Under the pieces are notes generated by a model. The model was not told the DNA's origin. It did not search any database and worked only from the letters and a program-made list of their open reading frames with translations. A stretch of 64,000 nucleotides of DNA, taken from positions 248,001-312,000 of the forward strand of contig NZ_AP027079.1 in the NCBI RefSeq assembly GCF_030295385.1, given 5' to 3'. Source of the DNA: Geothrix oryzae. GTDB lineage: Bacteria > Acidobacteriota > Holophagae > Holophagales > Holophagaceae. The position numbers were made by a program, and so were the translations under genes. How positions within the stretch are numbered: the stretch's first letter is position 1; each line of letters opens with the position of its first letter. This document shows positions 4,204 through 43,198 of the stretch, one piece after another.

Positions 4204-6366
4204 ATGGCCCCAGTGCGCTGGCCCCATTCCCTCGCCTGGAAGTTCTTCCTGCGCACGGCGCTCCTGGTGGTGCTGGTGGTGGGGGCGGTGCTGGGCGTGG
4301 CCTACCAGCAGGCCCAGAAGGGGGCGCGGGACGCCGCCGAGCGGGGGCTCCGCACGGCCGGCCGCGTGCTGGACAAGCACATCCCCCAGGAGGCCCGCGT
4401 GCTGGACGCGGGGCTGGAGGTCTTCGTCGCCCAGAGCACCAACAGCGCCTACCTCGACAGCGCCGCCAAGCGCGGGGACGAGGCCAGCGTCCGGGATCAC
4501 CTGCTGCAGAGCCTTCCGAACCTCCAGGCGGATGTCGCCGCCGTCGTCCGCCCGGATGGGCGGCGCCTCTCCTGCACCACGGATGGCGTGCGCCGGGACT
4601 ATGGCGATGTGGCCATCGCCCAGATGGCCCTGGACCCGGAGGGCGCCCAGGCCGCGGGCATCGAGGGGCCGTCGTACGCTGGCTTCCTCGAGTTCCCCTC
4701 GGGCACCCATGCGGGCTTCTACCTGGCGGTGGCCCGGCCCCTGCGGCTGCCGGGCGGTGACCTCATCGGCGCCATGCTGGTGGGGATCCGGCTGGGGGAC
4801 CGGGCCGCGGCGGACCTCCGGGACACGGCCGTGGGCCGGGCAGAGCCCCCTTCCCAGGTGGCCCTCCTCAGCCGGGGCCGCATCGTCGGCAGCACCCTGG
4901 AGCCCGCCGCCCAGGCGGGATTGGCCGCGGCCCTGGAGGGAGCCCGCTACGAACCCATCCGGGCGGCCCTCCTCCAAGGCCAGCCCTCGGGGCTGCTGGC
5001 GTTCCGGATCCACGGCGCGGACTACCTGGGCCGTGTCACGCCCCTGCGGGGGACGGATGGGCTGAAACACGAACTGGCCACGGCCCTGCTGCTGCCCCTG
5101 GATCCCTTCATGGCGCCGTTCCGGCGGTTGCAGTGGATCATCCTCGGCACCGGCTTCGGGGGCCTGCTGGTGGCCCTGGCCCTGGCGCTGCACGCGGCCC
5201 GGAGCGTGACGGCCCCCCTGGCCCGACTCACCGAGGCCACGGCGGAGCTGGCCCTGGGGGGCCGCCCCGGGCTGCCCCCCAGCCCGACCGGAGGCGAGGT
5301 TGGCGACGAGGTCGGGGCCCTCACCTCGGCCTTCCGGGCCCTGCTCGGCGAGCTGAAGGCCAAGGACGACCTGCTGGCCGCCCTGGCCCCGCTGCGCGCC
5401 GCTCCCGGCCGTCCCGGGCCCGGCGCCGAAGCCGACCTCGCCGTGGTGGACATGGAGGCCACGGTGCCGATGCCCGACGGAAGCCAGGCCCTGGCGGGCG
5501 AGGCGGCAGGCCCCCAGCGGCGCCTGGTGCTGAAGGAGGGCGATCTCTTCGCGGGCCGCTATCGACTGGAGTCGGTGCTGGGCCGGGGCGGCATGGGCCT
5601 CGTGCTGAAGGCCCGGGACCAGCAGCTGGACGAGGAGGTGGCCATCAAGATCCTCCGTCCCGAGCGCGACCTCGACCCGGCCTTCCTGGGCCAGCTCAAG
5701 CAGGAGATCCGGCTGGCCCGCCGGATCACCCACCGCCATGTGCTGCGCACCCATGATTTCGGCGAAGCCGACGGGGTCCCCTTCGTGACGATGGAGTACC
5801 TCAAGGGCGTGACGCTCAAGCAGCTGCTGGACGACCGCGGCCGCCTGCCCCTGCCCCTGGCCCTGCGCATCGGGCGTCAGGTGGCGGAAGGCCTGGAGGC
5901 CGCCCATGCCGTGGGCGTGGTGCACCGGGACATCAAGCCCCTCAATGTGCTCTTCGATGCCCGGGGCGACGCCAAGCTCATGGATTTCGGCCTGGCGGCC
6001 CCCGTGGCCGCGACAGGGGCGAGCCGCGAGGGTCTGATCTTCGGCACGCCGCGCTACATGGCGCCGGAACAGGTGCGGGGCGAACGGGTGGATCCCCGCA
6101 CGGACCTGTACGCCCTGGGTGTGATGCTCTACGAACTCAGCGTGGGGCGCCCGCCCTTCGACGGCGGCGAGGTCCAGGACATCCTGCGCCACCAGCTCGA
6201 GACCCCGGCGCCGGATGTGCGGACCGCCGTTCCCGAGCTGCCGCCGGCCTACGCGGACCTGCTGCAGCGCCTCATGGCCAAAGACATCGCCGCTCGGCCG
6301 GCCTCCGCCGCCGAGGTGGTGGAGCTCCTCAAGGGCATCGCCTCGGGAGACCGGGGGAGCGCCTGA
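4204..6366 (+). CDS. Membrane sensor Ser/Thr protein kinase with HAMP linker
   Basis: A 720-residue receptor kinase. The order is a TM helix (about 12-32), an extracytoplasmic sensor region of about 270 residues resembling a Cache-type domain, a second TM helix (about 308-330) and a HAMP-like linker ending around residue 390. A Hanks-type kinase domain follows, from about 445 to 712. The kinase keeps GRGGMG (about 460), the Lys in AIKIL, HRDIKPLN (about 573), DFG (about 594) and APEQ, so it should be active. This inverts the usual order, since many bacterial Hanks kinases place the sensor after the kinase domain. Signal and substrates are unknown; it is flanked by unrelated genes. Confidence 0.93.
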   Translation: MAPVRWPHSLAWKFFLRTALLVVLVVGAVLGVAYQQAQKGARDAAERGLRTAGRVLDKHIPQEARVLDAGLEVFVAQSTNSAYLDSAAKRGDEASVRDHLLQSLPNLQADVAAVVRPDGRRLSCTTDGVRRDYGDVAIAQMALDPEGAQAAGIEGPSYAGFLEFPSGTHAGFYLAVARPLRLPGGDLIGAMLVGIRLGDRAAADLRDTAVGRAEPPSQVALLSRGRIVGSTLEPAAQAGLAAALEGARYEPIRAALLQGQPSGLLAFRIHGADYLGRVTPLRGTDGLKHELATALLLPLDPFMAPFRRLQWIILGTGFGGLLVALALALHAARSVTAPLARLTEATAELALGGRPGLPPSPTGGEVGDEVGALTSAFRALLGELKAKDDLLAALAPLRAAPGRPGPGAEADLAVVDMEATVPMPDGSQALAGEAAGPQRRLVLKEGDLFAGRYRLESVLGRGGMGLVLKARDQQLDEEVAIKILRPERDLDPAFLGQLKQEIRLARRITHRHVLRTHDFGEADGVPFVTMEYLKGVTLKQLLDDRGRLPLPLALRIGRQVAEGLEAAHAVGVVHRDIKPLNVLFDARGDAKLMDFGLAAPVAATGASREGLIFGTPRYMAPEQVRGERVDPRTDLYALGVMLYELSVGRPPFDGGEVQDILRHQLETPAPDVRTAVPELPPAYADLLQRLMAKDIAARPASAAEVVELLKGIASGDRGSA

Positions 6367-6402
6367 CCGGGAGGCCGCTGGCGGCCCGGAGCAACCCGGC
6401 CG

Positions 6403-7053
6403 TCAGCCACCCCAGCCGCCCTGGGCGAAGCGGGTCAGCTTCTCGTCGCTGCCCCGCAGGGCCAGGGCCCGGGCCACGAAGCGACCGATGGGATCGGCTT
6501 CCAGGTTGACGGCGGTGCCGGGACGCAGGTGGTGGAGGGCTGTGCGGGTCACGGTCTCGGGGATGAGGGCCACGGTGAACCAGTCGGTGCCGCAGTCCAC
6601 CACCGTGAGCGAGATGCCGTCCACGGCCACGGAGCCCTTGGGCGCGATCATGGGCGCCAGGGCCCTGGCCATGGCGAACCGCCAGATGCCCTCGTCGAGG
6701 CCGCCCTGGCCCTGGGGGCGCGACAGCAACTGTCCGAGGCCGTCGACATGGCCCGATACCAGGTGGCCGTCCAGCGGATCACCCACCCGCAGGGCGGGTT
6801 CGAGGTGCAGGGAGGTACCCAGGGGCAGGCGGCCCAAGGTGGTCTTCTCCAGCGTCTCTTCGCTGAGGTCGGCCTCCCAGGCCCGTCCGTCCACGGCCAC
6901 GCTCGTGAGACAGGCGCCGTTCACGGCAATGCTGGCGCCCAGCTCGGCGCGAGCCAGGAGATCCGCCGGGGAAGCGATGCGCAGCCGCGCGCCGCCGGGT
7001 CGGGAGGCGCGGGATTCGAGCGTGCCGAGATGTCTGATCAGGCCGGTGAACAT
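6403..7053 (-). CDS. ribE: Riboflavin synthase (alpha chain)
   Basis: Converts two molecules of 6,7-dimethyl-8-ribityllumazine to riboflavin. The 216-residue protein shows the duplicated lumazine-binding fold: an N-terminal MFTGLI start, NGACLT (about 45-50) in the first half and the matching DGISLTV in the second half, with HLVSGHVDG between them. The ATG at 7053 gives the canonical N-terminus MFTGLI; an upstream extension of the frame is not family-like. It stands alone, without other rib genes or an FMN riboswitch. Confidence 0.96.
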   Translation of the reverse strand: MFTGLIRHLGTLESRASRPGGARLRIASPADLLARAELGASIAVNGACLTSVAVDGRAWEADLSEETLEKTTLGRLPLGTSLHLEPALRVGDPLDGHLVSGHVDGLGQLLSRPQGQGGLDEGIWRFAMARALAPMIAPKGSVAVDGISLTVVDCGTDWFTVALIPETVTRTALHHLRPGTAVNLEADPIGRFVARALALRGSDEKLTRFAQGGWGG

Positions 7054-38436: not shown

Positions 38437-38595
38437 CTATTGCTTGGCGATGGTTTTATGGTTGGCCGCCATATGTTCGTAGATGGCGGAACCGCAGATC
38501 CAGACGATCAGCCCCACGGTGACGATGCCGAGAATGCCGTTCGTGATGTTCAGCATGAGTGTTTCGGGATTCCGCCAGTTGGCGAGATCGAACAT
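38437..38595 (-). CDS. 52-residue single-pass membrane protein of the HybA/HybB operon
   Basis: ATG 38595 has an excellent Shine-Dalgarno (AAGGAGG, five to six bases upstream). The 52-residue product has an amphipathic start (MFDLANWRNPETLMLN), one membrane helix (about 17-40) and a short charged end. It is third in the operon after the HybB-like gene. It resembles the tiny stabilising subunits of other respiratory membrane complexes; this is inference from size and context. Confidence 0.7.
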   Translation of the reverse strand: MFDLANWRNPETLMLNITNGILGIVTVGLIVWICGSAIYEHMAANHKTIAKQ

Positions 38596-38636: not shown

Positions 38637-39842
38637 TTACGAAGGGCGCGGGTCTTCGCACTCGGGAGGCGCGAACAGCGGTTTCTTCTCGACGCTCGGG
38701 GCAGCGTCCCGGTGCTGGCCGGCGCCTGCTTCTTCGGCTGTGAACACGGGAAGGTATTCCGCGATGAACGAGAAGGCGCAGAAGCCCACGGCCGTGATGC
38801 CGAGCATGATGAAGATCTCGATGATGGACGGGAAATAGGTTTGGCTCGGATAGCGCTCCAGCCCGGTGATGGCCGTGTTCATCCGGTTGAAGGCGAAACC
38901 CAGCACCACCATCAAGCTCGCGTAATAGAGGCCCGTCTGCGAAGTCCTGACCTTCTCGAAGATCAGCAGGGCGAAGGGGATCACGAATCCGACCAGCAGC
39001 TCGGCGTAGAACGCCACGCTGTAGTAGGTCAGGGTGGTCAGGTCGTGGAGCGCGCCCCGGGTCAGGAGGTCCTGGATCCGCACCACGAAGTAGACCGCCA
39101 GCGCCAGGGCGATGGCCTTGGCGAGGTTGGCCCGGAGCCGGGTGGGCAGGAAGGGCCGTCCGTTCCTGGAGAAGATGAGCGACTCCAGGACGACCATCGA
39201 AAGCCCGGACGCGATGCACGAGATGAAGAAGAGGACGGGAAGCAGGGGTGTGTACCAGAGCGCATGGAGGCGGTTCGGGACGATCAGGTAGAGCGATCCG
39301 AACGAGGACTGGTGCAAGGTCGACAGCAGGACGCCGAAGATCATGAACGGCAGGGACACGGCGTGGATCCACTTGATGGGTGAATGGATGTTGAATTTCT
39401 CGAGGATGATGGGCGCGAATTCCAGCGACAGCACCGTGGTGTAGAGCATCAGGCACCAGCTGATCTCGCACATGACGGAGTGGGGATTCCACATGACCAG
39501 CGGATGCCAGAAGTGATCCGGCCGCCCCAGGTCGATGATCAGCACCAGGACCACGAGGAGGTACCCGATGAAGGCCGTCAGAATGGCGGGCCGGACGATG
39601 GGCTCGTATTCCTTGGCGTGGAAGAGATGGACGGCAGCCACGATCGTGAAGCCCGATGCGGCTAGGCCGATCCCCAGGAAGTCGAAGCCGATCCAGAGGC
39701 CCCACGGGAATTCGTCGCTCAGGTTGGTGGTCGCGCCGAGCCCGAGGGCGAAGCGCGCCACGGCGGCGAGGGCCCCGGCCAGGATGAGGATGATGGCGAT
39801 GGGCCGCCACCCGGTGACATGCGGCACGCTCAGGGTTTTCAT
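38637..39842 (-). CDS. NrfD/HybB-type membrane quinone-interacting subunit
   Basis: A 401-residue protein with about ten membrane helices in the NrfD/PsrC/HybB pattern: WGLWIGFDFLGIGLAASGF (about 47-65), DLGRPDHFWHPLVMWNPHS (about 103-121) and LESLIFSRNGRPF. Such subunits exchange electrons with menaquinone and partner with four-cluster ferredoxins. The start overlaps the stop of the HybA-like gene (ATGA). No catalytic hydrogenase, molybdopterin or cytochrome partner is adjacent. Confidence 0.9.
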   Translation of the reverse strand: MKTLSVPHVTGWRPIAIILILAGALAAVARFALGLGATTNLSDEFPWGLWIGFDFLGIGLAASGFTIVAAVHLFHAKEYEPIVRPAILTAFIGYLLVVLVLIIDLGRPDHFWHPLVMWNPHSVMCEISWCLMLYTTVLSLEFAPIILEKFNIHSPIKWIHAVSLPFMIFGVLLSTLHQSSFGSLYLIVPNRLHALWYTPLLPVLFFISCIASGLSMVVLESLIFSRNGRPFLPTRLRANLAKAIALALAVYFVVRIQDLLTRGALHDLTTLTYYSVAFYAELLVGFVIPFALLIFEKVRTSQTGLYYASLMVVLGFAFNRMNTAITGLERYPSQTYFPSIIEIFIMLGITAVGFCAFSFIAEYLPVFTAEEAGAGQHRDAAPSVEKKPLFAPPECEDPRPS

Positions 39843-40612
39843 TCGTCGTCCTCGCGCTCTGGGTCGTTTCCGTTCTTAAGGGACGATTCGTAGGCCTGCA
39901 CCTCGGCGCGCCGGTTGGTGATCCACCAGACACCCGCCAGCAGGACGCCCCCCACGGAAAGCACATTGGGGACCTTGGACAGGGCGCTCATCGTCAACAT
40001 GGGCATGGGGGCCTTCCCCAGCCGCGAATCAAAGCCCAACTGTTCGAAGGGAACGGGGCTCAGATACAGCATCGAGGTGCCGCCGACATCCTGTTCACCG
40101 TAGATCCGAGGCACATATTTCCCCGGCTCGGCCGTGATCCTGCGAGCCGCTTCGGCCAGCAGCTCGTCGCGGTCGCCGAATTTCGTGGCCCCCGTGGGGC
40201 AGGCCTCGGCGCAGGCCGTCTGCCGCCCGCTCGCGATCCGGGACGGACAGAACTTGCACTTGCGGATGGATGGTTTGGTGCTGCTCCACTCGTATTTGGG
40301 AACATGGAACGGGCAGGCCTGGAGGCAATAGCGGCAGCCGATGCATTTTTCGCCATCGTATGACACCGGGCCGGTGCTGGATTTGGTGAGCGCGCCAACG
40401 GGGCAGACCGATACGCATGTGGGCACATCGCAGTGCTGACACATACGGCGAACATAAAGGTCGTTGTACTTGTCGAGTGCGGTGTAGGCCGTGAGTGAAA
40501 GGTATTTCTCCTCTTGGGGCGGAAGCCCGTTTTCTTCTTTGCATCCCGCCTGGCAGGCGTTGCAGCCAACGCAGAGGGAGATGTCAATCAACATGGCCTT
40601 TTTGCTGGTCAT
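39839..40612 (-). CDS. HybA-like four-cluster ferredoxin subunit
   Basis: A 257-residue iron-sulfur protein with four cysteine clusters: CVGCNACQAGC (about 14-24), CQHC...CVSVCP, CIGCRYCLQACP and CKFC...CAEACP, enough for four [4Fe-4S] centres. A single membrane helix near 212-232 anchors the C-terminus. Unlike HybA itself there is no Tat signal; the protein begins directly with MTSKKAMLIDISLCVGC, so the clusters should face the cytoplasm. It is first in an operon with a HybB-like subunit and two tiny membrane proteins. Confidence 0.9.
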   Translation of the reverse strand: MTSKKAMLIDISLCVGCNACQAGCKEENGLPPQEEKYLSLTAYTALDKYNDLYVRRMCQHCDVPTCVSVCPVGALTKSSTGPVSYDGEKCIGCRYCLQACPFHVPKYEWSSTKPSIRKCKFCPSRIASGRQTACAEACPTGATKFGDRDELLAEAARRITAEPGKYVPRIYGEQDVGGTSMLYLSPVPFEQLGFDSRLGKAPMPMLTMSALSKVPNVLSVGGVLLAGVWWITNRRAEVQAYESSLKNGNDPEREDDE

Positions 40613-40689
40613 GGGCCGGTCCGATCAGGAGATTTGTTCAAAATAAAAGATGATTTGAAAAGAGTTAAAAACAACTGCGAATCACATAG

Positions 40690-40705
40690 GTCAAGTTGCG
40701 TACCA
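40690..40705 (-). promoter_or_regulatory. Sigma-54-like promoter for the HybA/HybB operon
   Basis: Minus-strand TGGTACG-CAAC-TTGAC fits the -24/-12 pattern (TGGCACG-N4-TTGC) except for T in -24 and A in place of the last C of -12. It would give a leader of about 70 nt. The same bases TTGACC could instead be a sigma-70 -35. An AT-rich T-run precedes it. The partner upstream element is at 40801-40839. Confidence 0.5.
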
Positions 40706-40800
40706 AAAAAAAAGAACCACAAATGGAGGCATCATCTCGTTTCAAGGATTGGAGTTGGGGCTTCCCTGACCGGGCCTATGGGTGAGGCCGCCACGCCGCT

Positions 40801-40839
40801 GCCCACCGCGCCATGGCGCGGAACCGTCAAATGCGACGG
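40801..40839 (-). promoter_or_regulatory. 39-bp upstream activating sequence, copy 1
   Basis: Its minus-strand sequence matches 34 of 39 bases of 42612-42650. It contains CGTCA-N4-CGACG (40825-40838, an imperfect dyad) and the perfect palindrome CCGCGCCATGGCGCGG (40806-40821). It lies 95 bp upstream of the sigma-54-like motif, normal for NtrC-type activator sites. Confidence 0.6.
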
Positions 40840-40941
40840 GTGCGGTGGTGGCCGCGGCGGAGGAAGGCCGTCGAGAAAATTTAGGGAGATGTGTCATTCG
40901 GGGGGTTCCCTTGGGAGGGAAAGGCCTACATTCATTAATGA

Positions 40942-40959
40942 CCGTTGAGTAATCAACGG
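40942..40959. promoter_or_regulatory. Perfect dyad upstream of the NtrC-type gene
   Basis: CCGTTGA-GTAA-TCAACGG is a perfect 7-bp inverted repeat 16 bp before the regulator ATG. Possible autoregulatory or other repressor site. It differs from the 39-bp element. The whole 40613-40975 gap (363 bp) holds these sites and an AT-rich stretch, and no gene. Confidence 0.45.
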
Positions 40960-40975
40960 ATCTGTTGAGGCATTG

Positions 40976-42601
40976 ATGCTTACGCAGACTGCCCCCTACA
41001 CCATCCGCCGAGCCGTCAGAGCCGAGGCTGGGATCCGGTCGGAGGTGATCCAGGTGAAAAAGCGTAGGCTTTTCTCAGCGCATGTTTCCGCGCTCCTATT
41101 GAAGCGCGCAGAGATAAACGCCATCCTGGACACCACGCCGAATGCCGTTTTCATCTTCACCAGGGACGGCATCACCCGCTGCAACAACGCTGCCGTGCGG
41201 ATGCTCGGCGTCGCGTCCATCAACGAGCTGCGGAGCCGGTACGGCAGGAGGGGCGAGGGATTCCTGCTGCGATGGCCGAAGAACCTGCTCCCTCTCCGTG
41301 AAGATGAGCACCCGGTCACGCGGGCCTTCAAGGGCGAAAAGGTGACGGAGATTCTGCTGGCCGTTCACGCCGGAACCGGGGAAGAGATCACGGTGCGGGC
41401 GACGGCGGCGCCGATCCTGGCGAAGGGAAAGATCATCGGCGCGGTCAGCATCCACTCGGACATCACCTGGGGGAAGCGGATCTGCCCGTGCCCGGCCGCG
41501 GCCGATCCGGGCAGCGATCTCCTCACGCAGGAGATGGCCCTCCGGCGGCAGGCGGAAAATGATCTGCACAAAGCCAAAGTGGAAGTGCAGGCGCTGAAGG
41601 ACCGCATCCAGTCCGCGGACATCTATCCGTTCCACGAGATCAATCACACCTATCACTTCGGCGAAGTGATCGGACATAGCCGCTGCCTGGAAAATGTGTT
41701 CTTCCGCGTCGAGGCCGTGGCGCCGCAGGATTCGACGGTGCTGCTCCTCGGGGAAACGGGCACCGGCAAGGGATTGGTGGCGCGCGCCATCCACAACCGC
41801 AGCCTGCGGAAGAACCGCCCGCTCGTCATGGTCAATTGCACGGCACTCCCCGCAAGCCTCATCGAAAGCGAACTGTTCGGGCGGGAGAAGGGGGCGTTCA
41901 CGGGGGCCAGCGCGCAGCAGCTGGGCCGCTTCGAGATGGCCGACAAGGGGACCATCCTGCTGGACGAGATCGGGGACCTGCCCTTCGAGCTGCAGGCCAA
42001 GCTGCTGCATGTGATCCAGGACGGCGAATTCAGCCGGCTGGGAAGTTCCAGGACCGTGAAGGTGGATGTCCGCATCATCGCGGCCACCAACCGGGATCTC
42101 TACGAGGAGATGCGGCTGGGGCGGTTCCGCGAGGACCTGTTCTACCGGCTCAACATCTTCCCCATCACCATTCCGCCGCTCCGGGACCGGCGAGAGGACA
42201 TCCCCCTGCTCGTGGAGTATTTCCTGGAGAAGTTCAATCGCAAGCTCGGCAAGAACATCCGGAATGTCACGAGCGAAACCATGGACCGCCTCATGGCACA
42301 CGCCTGGCCCGGCAATGTCCGGGAACTGGAAAGCGTGATCGAGCGGGCCGCGATCGTCTCGCAGGGCGCGACCCTTCAGGTGCTGGATCGCTTCGCTCCG
42401 GGTCCGGGCCGGGGCCAGGATGAGGTTCAAGAGCAGGGCGGGACCCGAGCTCTGGTGGAACTGGAGCGCGACTACATCAGCCAGGTGTTGCGCAGAACCA
42501 ACTGGCGGATCGAGGGGAACAACGGAGCCGCCCACATCCTCGGCATCAATCCGAGCACCCTCCGCGGCCGAATGCGCAAAGAAGGCATCCGTCGTCCTTG
42601 A
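40976..42601 (+). CDS. PAS-containing sigma-54-dependent transcriptional activator (NtrC/Fis type)
   Basis: A 541-residue activator. An N-terminal PAS domain (about 45-165) is followed by a CPCP segment and a coiled linker (about 190-210). The AAA+ domain (about 225-460) has GETGTGKG (Walker A), GAFTGA (the sigma-54 contact loop) and LLDEIGDL (Walker B), and a C-terminal Fis-type helix-turn-helix ends in NNGAAHILGINPSTLRGRMRK. There is no phospho-receiver domain, so the PAS domain probably senses the signal. ATG 40976 has GAGG at five bases; GTG 41054 has GGAGGTGATC and is a strong alternative start. Confidence 0.93.
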   Translation: MLTQTAPYTIRRAVRAEAGIRSEVIQVKKRRLFSAHVSALLLKRAEINAILDTTPNAVFIFTRDGITRCNNAAVRMLGVASINELRSRYGRRGEGFLLRWPKNLLPLREDEHPVTRAFKGEKVTEILLAVHAGTGEEITVRATAAPILAKGKIIGAVSIHSDITWGKRICPCPAAADPGSDLLTQEMALRRQAENDLHKAKVEVQALKDRIQSADIYPFHEINHTYHFGEVIGHSRCLENVFFRVEAVAPQDSTVLLLGETGTGKGLVARAIHNRSLRKNRPLVMVNCTALPASLIESELFGREKGAFTGASAQQLGRFEMADKGTILLDEIGDLPFELQAKLLHVIQDGEFSRLGSSRTVKVDVRIIAATNRDLYEEMRLGRFREDLFYRLNIFPITIPPLRDRREDIPLLVEYFLEKFNRKLGKNIRNVTSETMDRLMAHAWPGNVRELESVIERAAIVSQGATLQVLDRFAPGPGRGQDEVQEQGGTRALVELERDYISQVLRRTNWRIEGNNGAAHILGINPSTLRGRMRKEGIRRP

Positions 42602-42611
42602 CCAGAAGCGT

Positions 42612-42650
42612 CCGTCACATTTGACGATTCCGTTTCATGGCGCGGTGGGC
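42612..42650 (+). promoter_or_regulatory. 39-bp upstream activating sequence, copy 2
   Basis: Matches the reverse complement of 40801-40839 at 34 of 39 bases. It contains the perfect dyad CGTCA-CATT-TGACG (42613-42626). It begins 10 bp after the regulator's stop codon and lies 92 bp upstream of the sigma-54-like motif at 42743. Confidence 0.6.
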
Positions 42651-42711
42651 TGCGTCGGGCCGCCGGATCGCCGCCCGGGGCCCTGCTGGCCAATACCAGT
42701 CTATTGAGCGA

Positions 42712-42729
42712 AATACGGATCGCCGTATT
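42712..42729. repeat. Small inverted repeat upstream of the second sigma-54-like motif
   Basis: AATACGG-ATCG-CCGTATT is a perfect 7-bp inverted repeat between the 39-bp element and the -24 box. It could be a further protein site or an RNA hairpin ending read-through from the regulator gene. Confidence 0.5.
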
Positions 42730-42742
42730 CTCTGGTGCGCTT

Positions 42743-42758
42743 TGGCATGTGACTTGAA
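42743..42758 (+). promoter_or_regulatory. Sigma-54-like promoter for the Sll1863-like gene
   Basis: TGGCATG-TGAC-TTGAA fits the -24/-12 consensus except for A instead of C in the -12 GC. It shares 12 of 16 positions with the motif at 40690-40705. The gene begins 114 bp downstream. Confidence 0.5.
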
Positions 42759-42871
42759 CCCTTCCATGCGAGATGAAGCCATTCGAATGACGCCGCTTCA
42801 GAACCGGGAGTGGGCGCTGACCTTCCCTGCATCGAGAGAGCGGCGAGGGGCCGCGAGGAAAGGGGCCGATC

Positions 42872-43198
42872 ATGCACACCTCCGAAAAAACGCCTCTGCC
42901 CCCCGCGGCGATCTCATCGAGTCGAAGGGCCGATCTCGAACGGTTCGAAGCGCAGCTGGCGGAATGGACCGCTCTGATCGGCCAGTACCGGGCCGCCGCG
43001 AGACGGGCGGAGGCTCGGGTCAGGCTGGTGCTGGACCGCATCACGGATGACCTGCAGCTGCGGAGAAACGAGGCCAGCGCCCAGGTCCTGCGACTGAAAA
43101 GCGCCACCGACGCCGAGTGGGAGCCTGAGCGGGAGCGGTTGGAGCGCTCCTGGCAGGTCATCCAGTCCTCCTTCCGGAGGGCCGAGGGCCGGTTTTGA
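42872..43198 (+). CDS. Sll1863-like coiled-coil stress protein
   Basis: A 108-residue soluble, charged, all-helical protein with a long heptad pattern from about residue 20 to the end. The end reads W-x5-E-x4-W-x7-F-x3-E-x-R-F and the spacing of Leu, Arg and Ala resembles the short Sll1863-family stress proteins. Function unknown. AAGGGG precedes the ATG at six bases. It is the only gene downstream of the second sigma-54-like promoter, so it likely belongs to the PAS-activator regulon. Confidence 0.65.
   Translation: MHTSEKTPLPPAAISSSRRADLERFEAQLAEWTALIGQYRAAARRAEARVRLVLDRITDDLQLRRNEASAQVLRLKSATDAEWEPERERLERSWQVIQSSFRRAEGRF

Follow-up and report, generated by a model that had tools for sequence, protein, structure and literature searches.

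Genes and paired elements around the activator gene

The window—the whole stretch of 64,000 nucleotides analysed here—comprises positions 248001–312000 of a single-contig 3.27-Mb Geothrix genome, and includes a sigma-54 activator gene (40976–42601, plus strand) with neighbours on both sides. Divergent from that gene, on the minus strand, run a hybA-like or HmcB-like gene for an iron-sulfur protein (39839–40612) and a hybB-like or HmcC-like gene for an NrfD-family membrane protein (38637–39842), both assigned through matches to Pfam and NCBIfam profiles; the third of the run is a short hydrophobic ORF (38437–38595), for which no Pfam or NCBIfam family match was found and whose place after hybB we take to recall that of HmcD. 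The names HybA and HybB were given in a preliminary description of this DNA; the top NCBIfam models were of the HmcB/HmcC and the HybA/HybB types, but in neither protein was any equivalog cut-off reached. The presence of HybA/HybB-like proteins within a three-ORF run suggests a quinone-linked electron-transfer module. On the other side, 3' of the activator gene and on the same strand, lies a gene (42872–43198) that had been called Sll1863-like, and rightly so, its product passing the cut-off of the sll1863 family—which NCBIfam names as a stress-response family—with 54.2 bits against 35 (NF052504).

The profile search found in the activator a PAS domain, the Sigma54_activat AAA+ domain (PF00158, 1.1e-67), and the HTH_8 domain (PF02954, 4.1e-8); the Walker A sequence GETGTGKG and the GAFTGA motif were both kept in all six aligned orthologs. 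The product thus combines a Sigma54_activat AAA+ domain carrying GAFTGA and Walker A with a Fis-type DNA-binding helix-turn-helix, as is proper to a bacterial enhancer-binding protein, and its earlier identification as a sigma-54 activator with GAFTGA stands. The best NCBIfam models were FhlA (377.4 bits, cut-off 830), NifA (376.4, cut-off 528.85), and NorR (344.7, cut-off 476); every curated cut-off was missed, and the protein is not assigned to any of the three equivalogs. With enhancer-binding proteins of the FhlA/NorR/NifA type it shares the arrangement of sensor domain, AAA+, and Fis-type helix-turn-helix, but it differs from them in its sensor region and in the sequence of its site. Its PAS domain may sense a redox or respiratory signal.

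The activator gene is flanked by two 39-bp elements, one on the hybA side (40801–40839, minus strand) and the other on the sll1863 side (42612–42650, plus strand), the reverse complement of the former agreeing with the latter at 34 of 39 positions, exactly as had been claimed; over 51 nt the two still agree at 82%. Among 2000 pairs of first-order Markov sequences built from the two intergenic stretches the best 39-mer match never exceeded 26, against the 34 observed. A BLAST search with 42560–42720 found only these two copies in the whole 3.27-Mb genome, and CCGTCRYATTTGACG occurred exactly at the two element places and nowhere else, while with up to two mismatches it gave 13 matches versus 5 for the control. 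Each element consists of two 16-bp dyads set 18 bp apart—on the hybA side CCGTCGCATTTGACGG at 40824–40839 and CCGCGCCATGGCGCGG at 40806–40821, the second being less conserved than the first. We propose that the element is an enhancer site of the activator, the two-dyad layout of which would fit two activator dimers side by side.

Downstream of the elements lie the two -24/-12-like motifs at the distances originally given: TGGTACGCAACTTGAC (40690–40705, minus strand) at 95 bp and 77 nt upstream of the hybA ATG, and TGGCATGTGACTTGAA (42743–42758, plus strand) at 92 bp, before the sll1863-like gene. The genome has four exact occurrences of TGGYAYGNRAYTTGA, of which two are the motifs of this regulon; at up to one mismatch the sequence gave 6 matches versus 4 for the backwards control, so that we regard the motif by itself as weak evidence and let its place and its conservation carry the weight. 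A search for a larger regulon found no further 39-bp element genome-wide, and none near the other two exact TTGA motifs.

Apart from these features, a perfect dyad, CCGTTGA-GTAA-TCAACGG, occupies 40942–40959, in the spacer that separates the hybA-side element from the start of the activator gene. Relatives have in the same spacer a comparable stretch, roughly CGTTGANTACNCAACGG, followed by TGTAGG on the other strand; the dyad is possibly an operator or the start region of the activator gene.

Conservation and joint absence among Geothrix genomes

We sought the activator in 60 relatives and then in 30 others, and retained the 20 loci in which hybA adjoins an activator with 67% identity or more (the window's own, L003, together with L004–L018, L020, and L269–L271), which amounts to a hybA–activator regulon in 20 of the 43 Geothrix genomes examined, several or even many of these being incomplete. 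On the hybA side a dyad matching CCGTCGCATTTGACGG at no fewer than 14 of 16 places is present in all 20 loci, and so is a GG-N10-GA motif 89–95 bp after the 39-bp element; L269–L271, which came to light once the pattern was already defined, agree with it, their distances being calculated from the mapped positions. The sll1863-like gene is present in 11 loci (L003–L011, L269, and L270), in each of which the second element, its dyad agreeing at 13 or more of 16 places, is joined by a GG-N10-GA motif at 91–93 bp. Just before the TTG, where the motif otherwise has C or T, L012–L015 on the hybA side and L009 on the sll1863 side have A. In the eight loci that are without the gene (L012–L018 and L271) the second element and the second motif are likewise absent, either through loss or because the sll1863-like gene and its pair were never gained in that group; in L020 the sll1863 side is cut off by the contig end.

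The modal identity of element and motif was 0.89 and 0.91 on the hybA side (17 loci) and 0.92 and 0.91 on the sll1863 side (9 loci), while the flanks of both diverge to 0.48–0.69 in the same loci. These figures bear upon the notion that the two 39-bp copies arose by a recent inverted duplication, or are the terminal repeats of a mobile element, and have no regulatory role, to which the picture of one gene flanked by two inverted copies might lend itself; nevertheless the copies keep the same places in diverged relatives while their flanks change, and the genome has no third copy, so that we hold this notion to be extremely improbable. A dispersed repeat or mobile element is ruled out by the restriction to two copies, both at conserved places.

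The site, the motif, the spacing, and their joint conservation and joint absence can be read directly from the DNA. A lack of conservation in relatives that keep the cluster had been named beforehand as the outcome that would speak against the preliminary description, and that outcome did not occur; its proposal of one activator and two promoters fits both the joint conservation (20 of 20 and 11 of 11) and the joint absence (8 of 8). That one activator would serve two promoters of the sigma-54 type is thus well supported by the comparison of loci.

The -12 letter in the regulon, the genus, and the pilin promoters

The canonical sigma-54 promoter, TGGCACG-N4-TTGCW, is served by an upstream enhancer and has as its hallmark the GC at -12, upon which the scanning matrices are built. 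The present regulon shares with it the GG at -24 and the ten bases from there to the -12 dinucleotide (each in 31 of 31 promoters), an enhancer some 90–130 bp upstream, and an adjoining activator gene; but where the canonical promoter has GC at -12, the regulon has GA in all 31. On account of that GA we treat these promoters as a variant that would work like a sigma-54 promoter, rather than as canonical members of the class. A 2025 survey gives the consensus as TGGCACN5-7TTGCT, and its main text contains no word beginning with "acidobacteri" (PMC12316311). In the open-access literature searched, whose coverage is partial, we found neither a report of a preference for GA at -12, nor one on Geothrix with sigma-54, nor one on a sigma54 promoter consensus of the Acidobacteria.

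When the -12 letter was left open in the pattern TGGCAYGNNNYTTGNW—which, by demanding C or T before TTG, misses the GC site of genome G009 described below—41 Geothrix genomes gave A 65, C 1, G 18, and T 5, or 89 matches versus 21 for the backwards control, 13 of the 65 A sites being by their coordinates the regulon's own. The comparison set of 35 genomes outside Geothrix gave A 13, C 4, G 14, and T 3 in the other Holophagaceae (16 genomes); A 6, C 12, G 3, and T 1 in family f2 of the class (5 genomes); A 15, C 2, G 24, and T 11, with no excess of GC, in its family f3 (7 genomes); and A 3, C 23, G 2, and T 5 in other classes of the phylum (7 genomes). The looser pattern TGGCAYNNNNNTTGMT, adopted partly because sites such as that of G009 escape the stricter one, and counted by eye in six Geothrix genomes, had A 27 times and C 4 times (binomial p 1e-10 against the base composition, which at 69% GC would lead one to expect C more commonly than A). 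The reservation expressed earlier, that both -12 elements read TTGA instead of TTGC, was correct and finds its answer in this genus-wide preference: judged from the counts, TTGA is no defect in Geothrix, and A at -12 is strongly preferred without being obligatory.

The same box stands before genes of another kind, among them those for pilins, a classic target of sigma-54. In 40 regions around chosen TGGCAYGNNNYTTGNW matches in Geothrix, 38 of which have TTGA, the motif lies 33–48 nt upstream of a type IV pilin gene in 13 (L109, L110, L111, L113, L114, L115, L118, L123, L126, L127, L138, L139, and L143, the pilin ATG of L113, L127, and L138 being read by eye). Other regions have, by our reading, lipoprotein-like or fimbria-like genes behind the motif (e.g., L105, L107, L136, L141, L121, and L122), and still others have no such gene close by, so that chance is possible there (e.g., L106, L108, L112, L116, L128, and L134). 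The two further exact TTGA sites of the window genome are copies of TGGCATGGGACTTGAT, each standing 36 nt before the ATG of one of two tandem, near-identical pilin-like genes (locus L040, G000:C1:2426000-2440000, 5241–6426). In Geobacter sulfurreducens, pilA is RpoN-dependent with PilR beside it, and activators often adjoin their targets (PMC2725144). The Geothrix pilin genes resemble that system in lying behind a -24/-12 promoter, but the Geobacter consensus given there, TTGGCACGGTTTTTGCT, has GC (PMC2725144), whereas the Geothrix pilin promoters that were read have GA.

For the sister genera, we located the pilin promoters by starting at the gene rather than by pattern search; this covered 24 distinct Holophagaceae genomes outside Geothrix. 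Eight have GA (G066, G067, G074, G075, G084, G096, G098, and G102) and nine GC (G065, G073, G076, G079, G082, G083, G089, G090, and G097; the box of G076, TGGCCCGGGGATTGCC, was read by eye), while in the remaining seven (G081, G086, G088, G093, G095, G100, and G101) no pilin promoter was recognised. Outside the family the pilin promoter has GC in G039, G054, G055, and G057, and GG-N10-GC by eye in G037 and G045; G053 has a GC motif at -123, and G042, of family f3, has TGGCACCACATTTGAA; the other genomes read there yielded no clear pilin box.

These pilin promoters also help in judging whether the boxes belong to sigma-54 at all. The TTGA could instead be part of a different box, such as a sigma-70 -35 element TTGACC before hybA, where by our own reading an AT-rich stretch follows, and the conserved stretch could be bound by an unrelated factor; in favour of this one may adduce that the hallmark GC is absent at both promoters. 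Against this speak the GG-N10-GA that all 31 regulon promoters keep next to the gene of a sigma-54 activator, the pilin genes with GG-N10-GC in sister genera and GG-N10-GA in Geothrix, and the variation of the bases that follow TTGA; we consider such another box very unlikely.

Paralogous activators repeat the layout of the regulon with a different dyad sequence. In the Geothrix genome G009 (L021, G009:C46, reverse strand, about 2619–2763) a paralog with 62% identity over part of its length is accompanied by two tandem dyads and, after 90 bp, by TGGCACGTCCGTTGCT with GC, upstream of the gene for a probable secreted protein; L272 has two dyads with TGGCACAGGTCTTGAA at 73 bp, and L019 one dyad with TGGCACAGTTCTCGAT, read by eye. 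In G083, which belongs to a GC genus, the motif next to the related activator reads GA. The GC promoter of G009, the four C sites of the looser pattern, and the GA motif of G083 are the reasons for which we speak of GA as a strong preference and not as an exclusive code.

Whole-genome counts with TGGCAYNNNNNTTGMT were extended to the sister genera. Ten Holophagaceae genomes from genera whose pilin promoters have GC had A 34 and C 30 (by eye; the pilin-unread G086 assigned by genus), and nine genomes of the other group at least 39 A and at least 16 C (by eye; G102 counted in part, G074 left out, and the pilin-unread G081 and G088 placed by genus or residue). With the six Geothrix genomes added to the second group, Fisher's test on the matches listed gave p 0.003, a value that ignores kinship. 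The whole-genome -12 pattern outside Geothrix is too noisy for us to build upon.

RpoN of the Holophagaceae and the reading of GA

The RpoN of the window genome is 88–93% identical to those of Geothrix fermentans, G. oryzisoli, G. terrae, G. paludis, G. limicola, G. rubra, G. campi, and G. fuzhouensis, and 99% to that of one relative, a Geothrix sp. MAG; the wider circle is labelled Holophagaceae. This places the genome in Geothrix (Holophagaceae, Acidobacteriota). A second RpoN that might read TTGA is excluded by the single Sigma54_DBD match in the genome. We aligned 109 RpoN sequences, 102 from Holophagaceae (some genomes being represented twice, through two collections; 101 readable) and 7 from outgroups. 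The helix-turn-helix is said, after work by Merrick and Chambers in 1992, to read the -13 region. Compared with E. coli, the Holophagaceae have there Y389 changed to T, E398 to D, and K400 to N in 101 of 101, and R394 to Q in 99 of 101, while all seven outgroups keep Y, R, and E at 389, 394, and 398 and have, at the place of K400, K in five, R in L098, and N in L103. E378 and R383 are kept; both residues crosslink to promoter DNA (PMC5505868). The helix-turn-helix changes are common to GA and GC genera, so that they cannot alone fix A.

At a further position, 371 (E. coli N322), 88 of the 101 sequences have R, 10 have K, two have N, and one has H, whereas all seven outgroups have K. Outside Geothrix, R accompanies GA in eight of eight genomes, and a residue other than R accompanies GC in eight of nine. 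The rule predicted from the genomes read first was borne out in the newly read G096, G097, G098, and G102 but failed at L209 (genome G092, identical by coordinates with G089), which has R together with GC pilin promoters and excludes residue 371 as the sole determinant. As far as the alignment goes, the change in RpoN and the change at -12 are associated, and no single residue explains them.

Taken together, we consider it highly probable that the activator acts from two sites upon RpoN at two GA promoters, with a Geothrix sigma-54 that takes A. The PAS–AAA–Fis enhancer-binding protein would bind the two 39-bp sites on either side of its own gene and, from there, would loop the DNA so as to activate the RpoN holoenzyme at the -24/-12 promoter some 90 bp downstream, the targets being the hybA–hybB operon, for membrane electron transfer, and the sll1863-like gene. 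The -12 box would read GA because in Geothrix A is either strongly preferred or readily accepted by sigma-54; the genus-wide occurrence of this A is plain from the letters. As to the dependence on RpoN, the start sites, and the RpoN residues responsible, we infer them from the sequences. The regulon would offer a compact test case, with one activator, two near-identical enhancer sites, an electron-transfer operon, and a gene of a stress family.

How A came to stand at -12 may be answered in two ways. One answer is a change of -12 specificity in the sigma-54 of the Holophagaceae, by which a sigma factor would have been naturally re-specified along with its promoters; we regard this as a serious possibility without counting it as probable. 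The replacement of Y389, R394, E398, and K400 by T, Q, D, and N on the family stem would have let A replace C at -12; afterwards nearly all sigma-54 promoters of Geothrix and of several sister genera would have passed from GC to GA, position 371 being one candidate modifier. The other answer, that these are sigma-54 promoters in which A is a tolerated weak variant serving tight control while GC is still read best, seems to us rather unlikely. It draws on the GC promoter of G009, on the same unusual helix-turn-helix residues in the family's GC genera, and on the single-base changes of GC or GG known in characterised promoters (PMC7910581). Against it stand the excess of A over C—65 against 1 under the stricter pattern, 27 against 4 under the looser one, where at 69% GC one would expect C more often—and the occurrence of A in the pilin promoters as well. 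In a lineage preferring GA, scans based on GC would miss much of the sigma-54 regulon, and the RpoN of such a lineage provides a natural comparison for the residues that read the -12 box, with the GC sister genera as built-in controls.

On the RpoN tree, whose deeper family forks are unresolved, the GA and GC labels need three changes, and one supported GA clade (96/92) unites Geothrix with L215 and two further genera. Beyond the helix-turn-helix changes, the branch leading from the Holophagaceae RpoN (L057–L097 and L175–L238) to the outgroups of the class is very long, at 3.37 changes per column.
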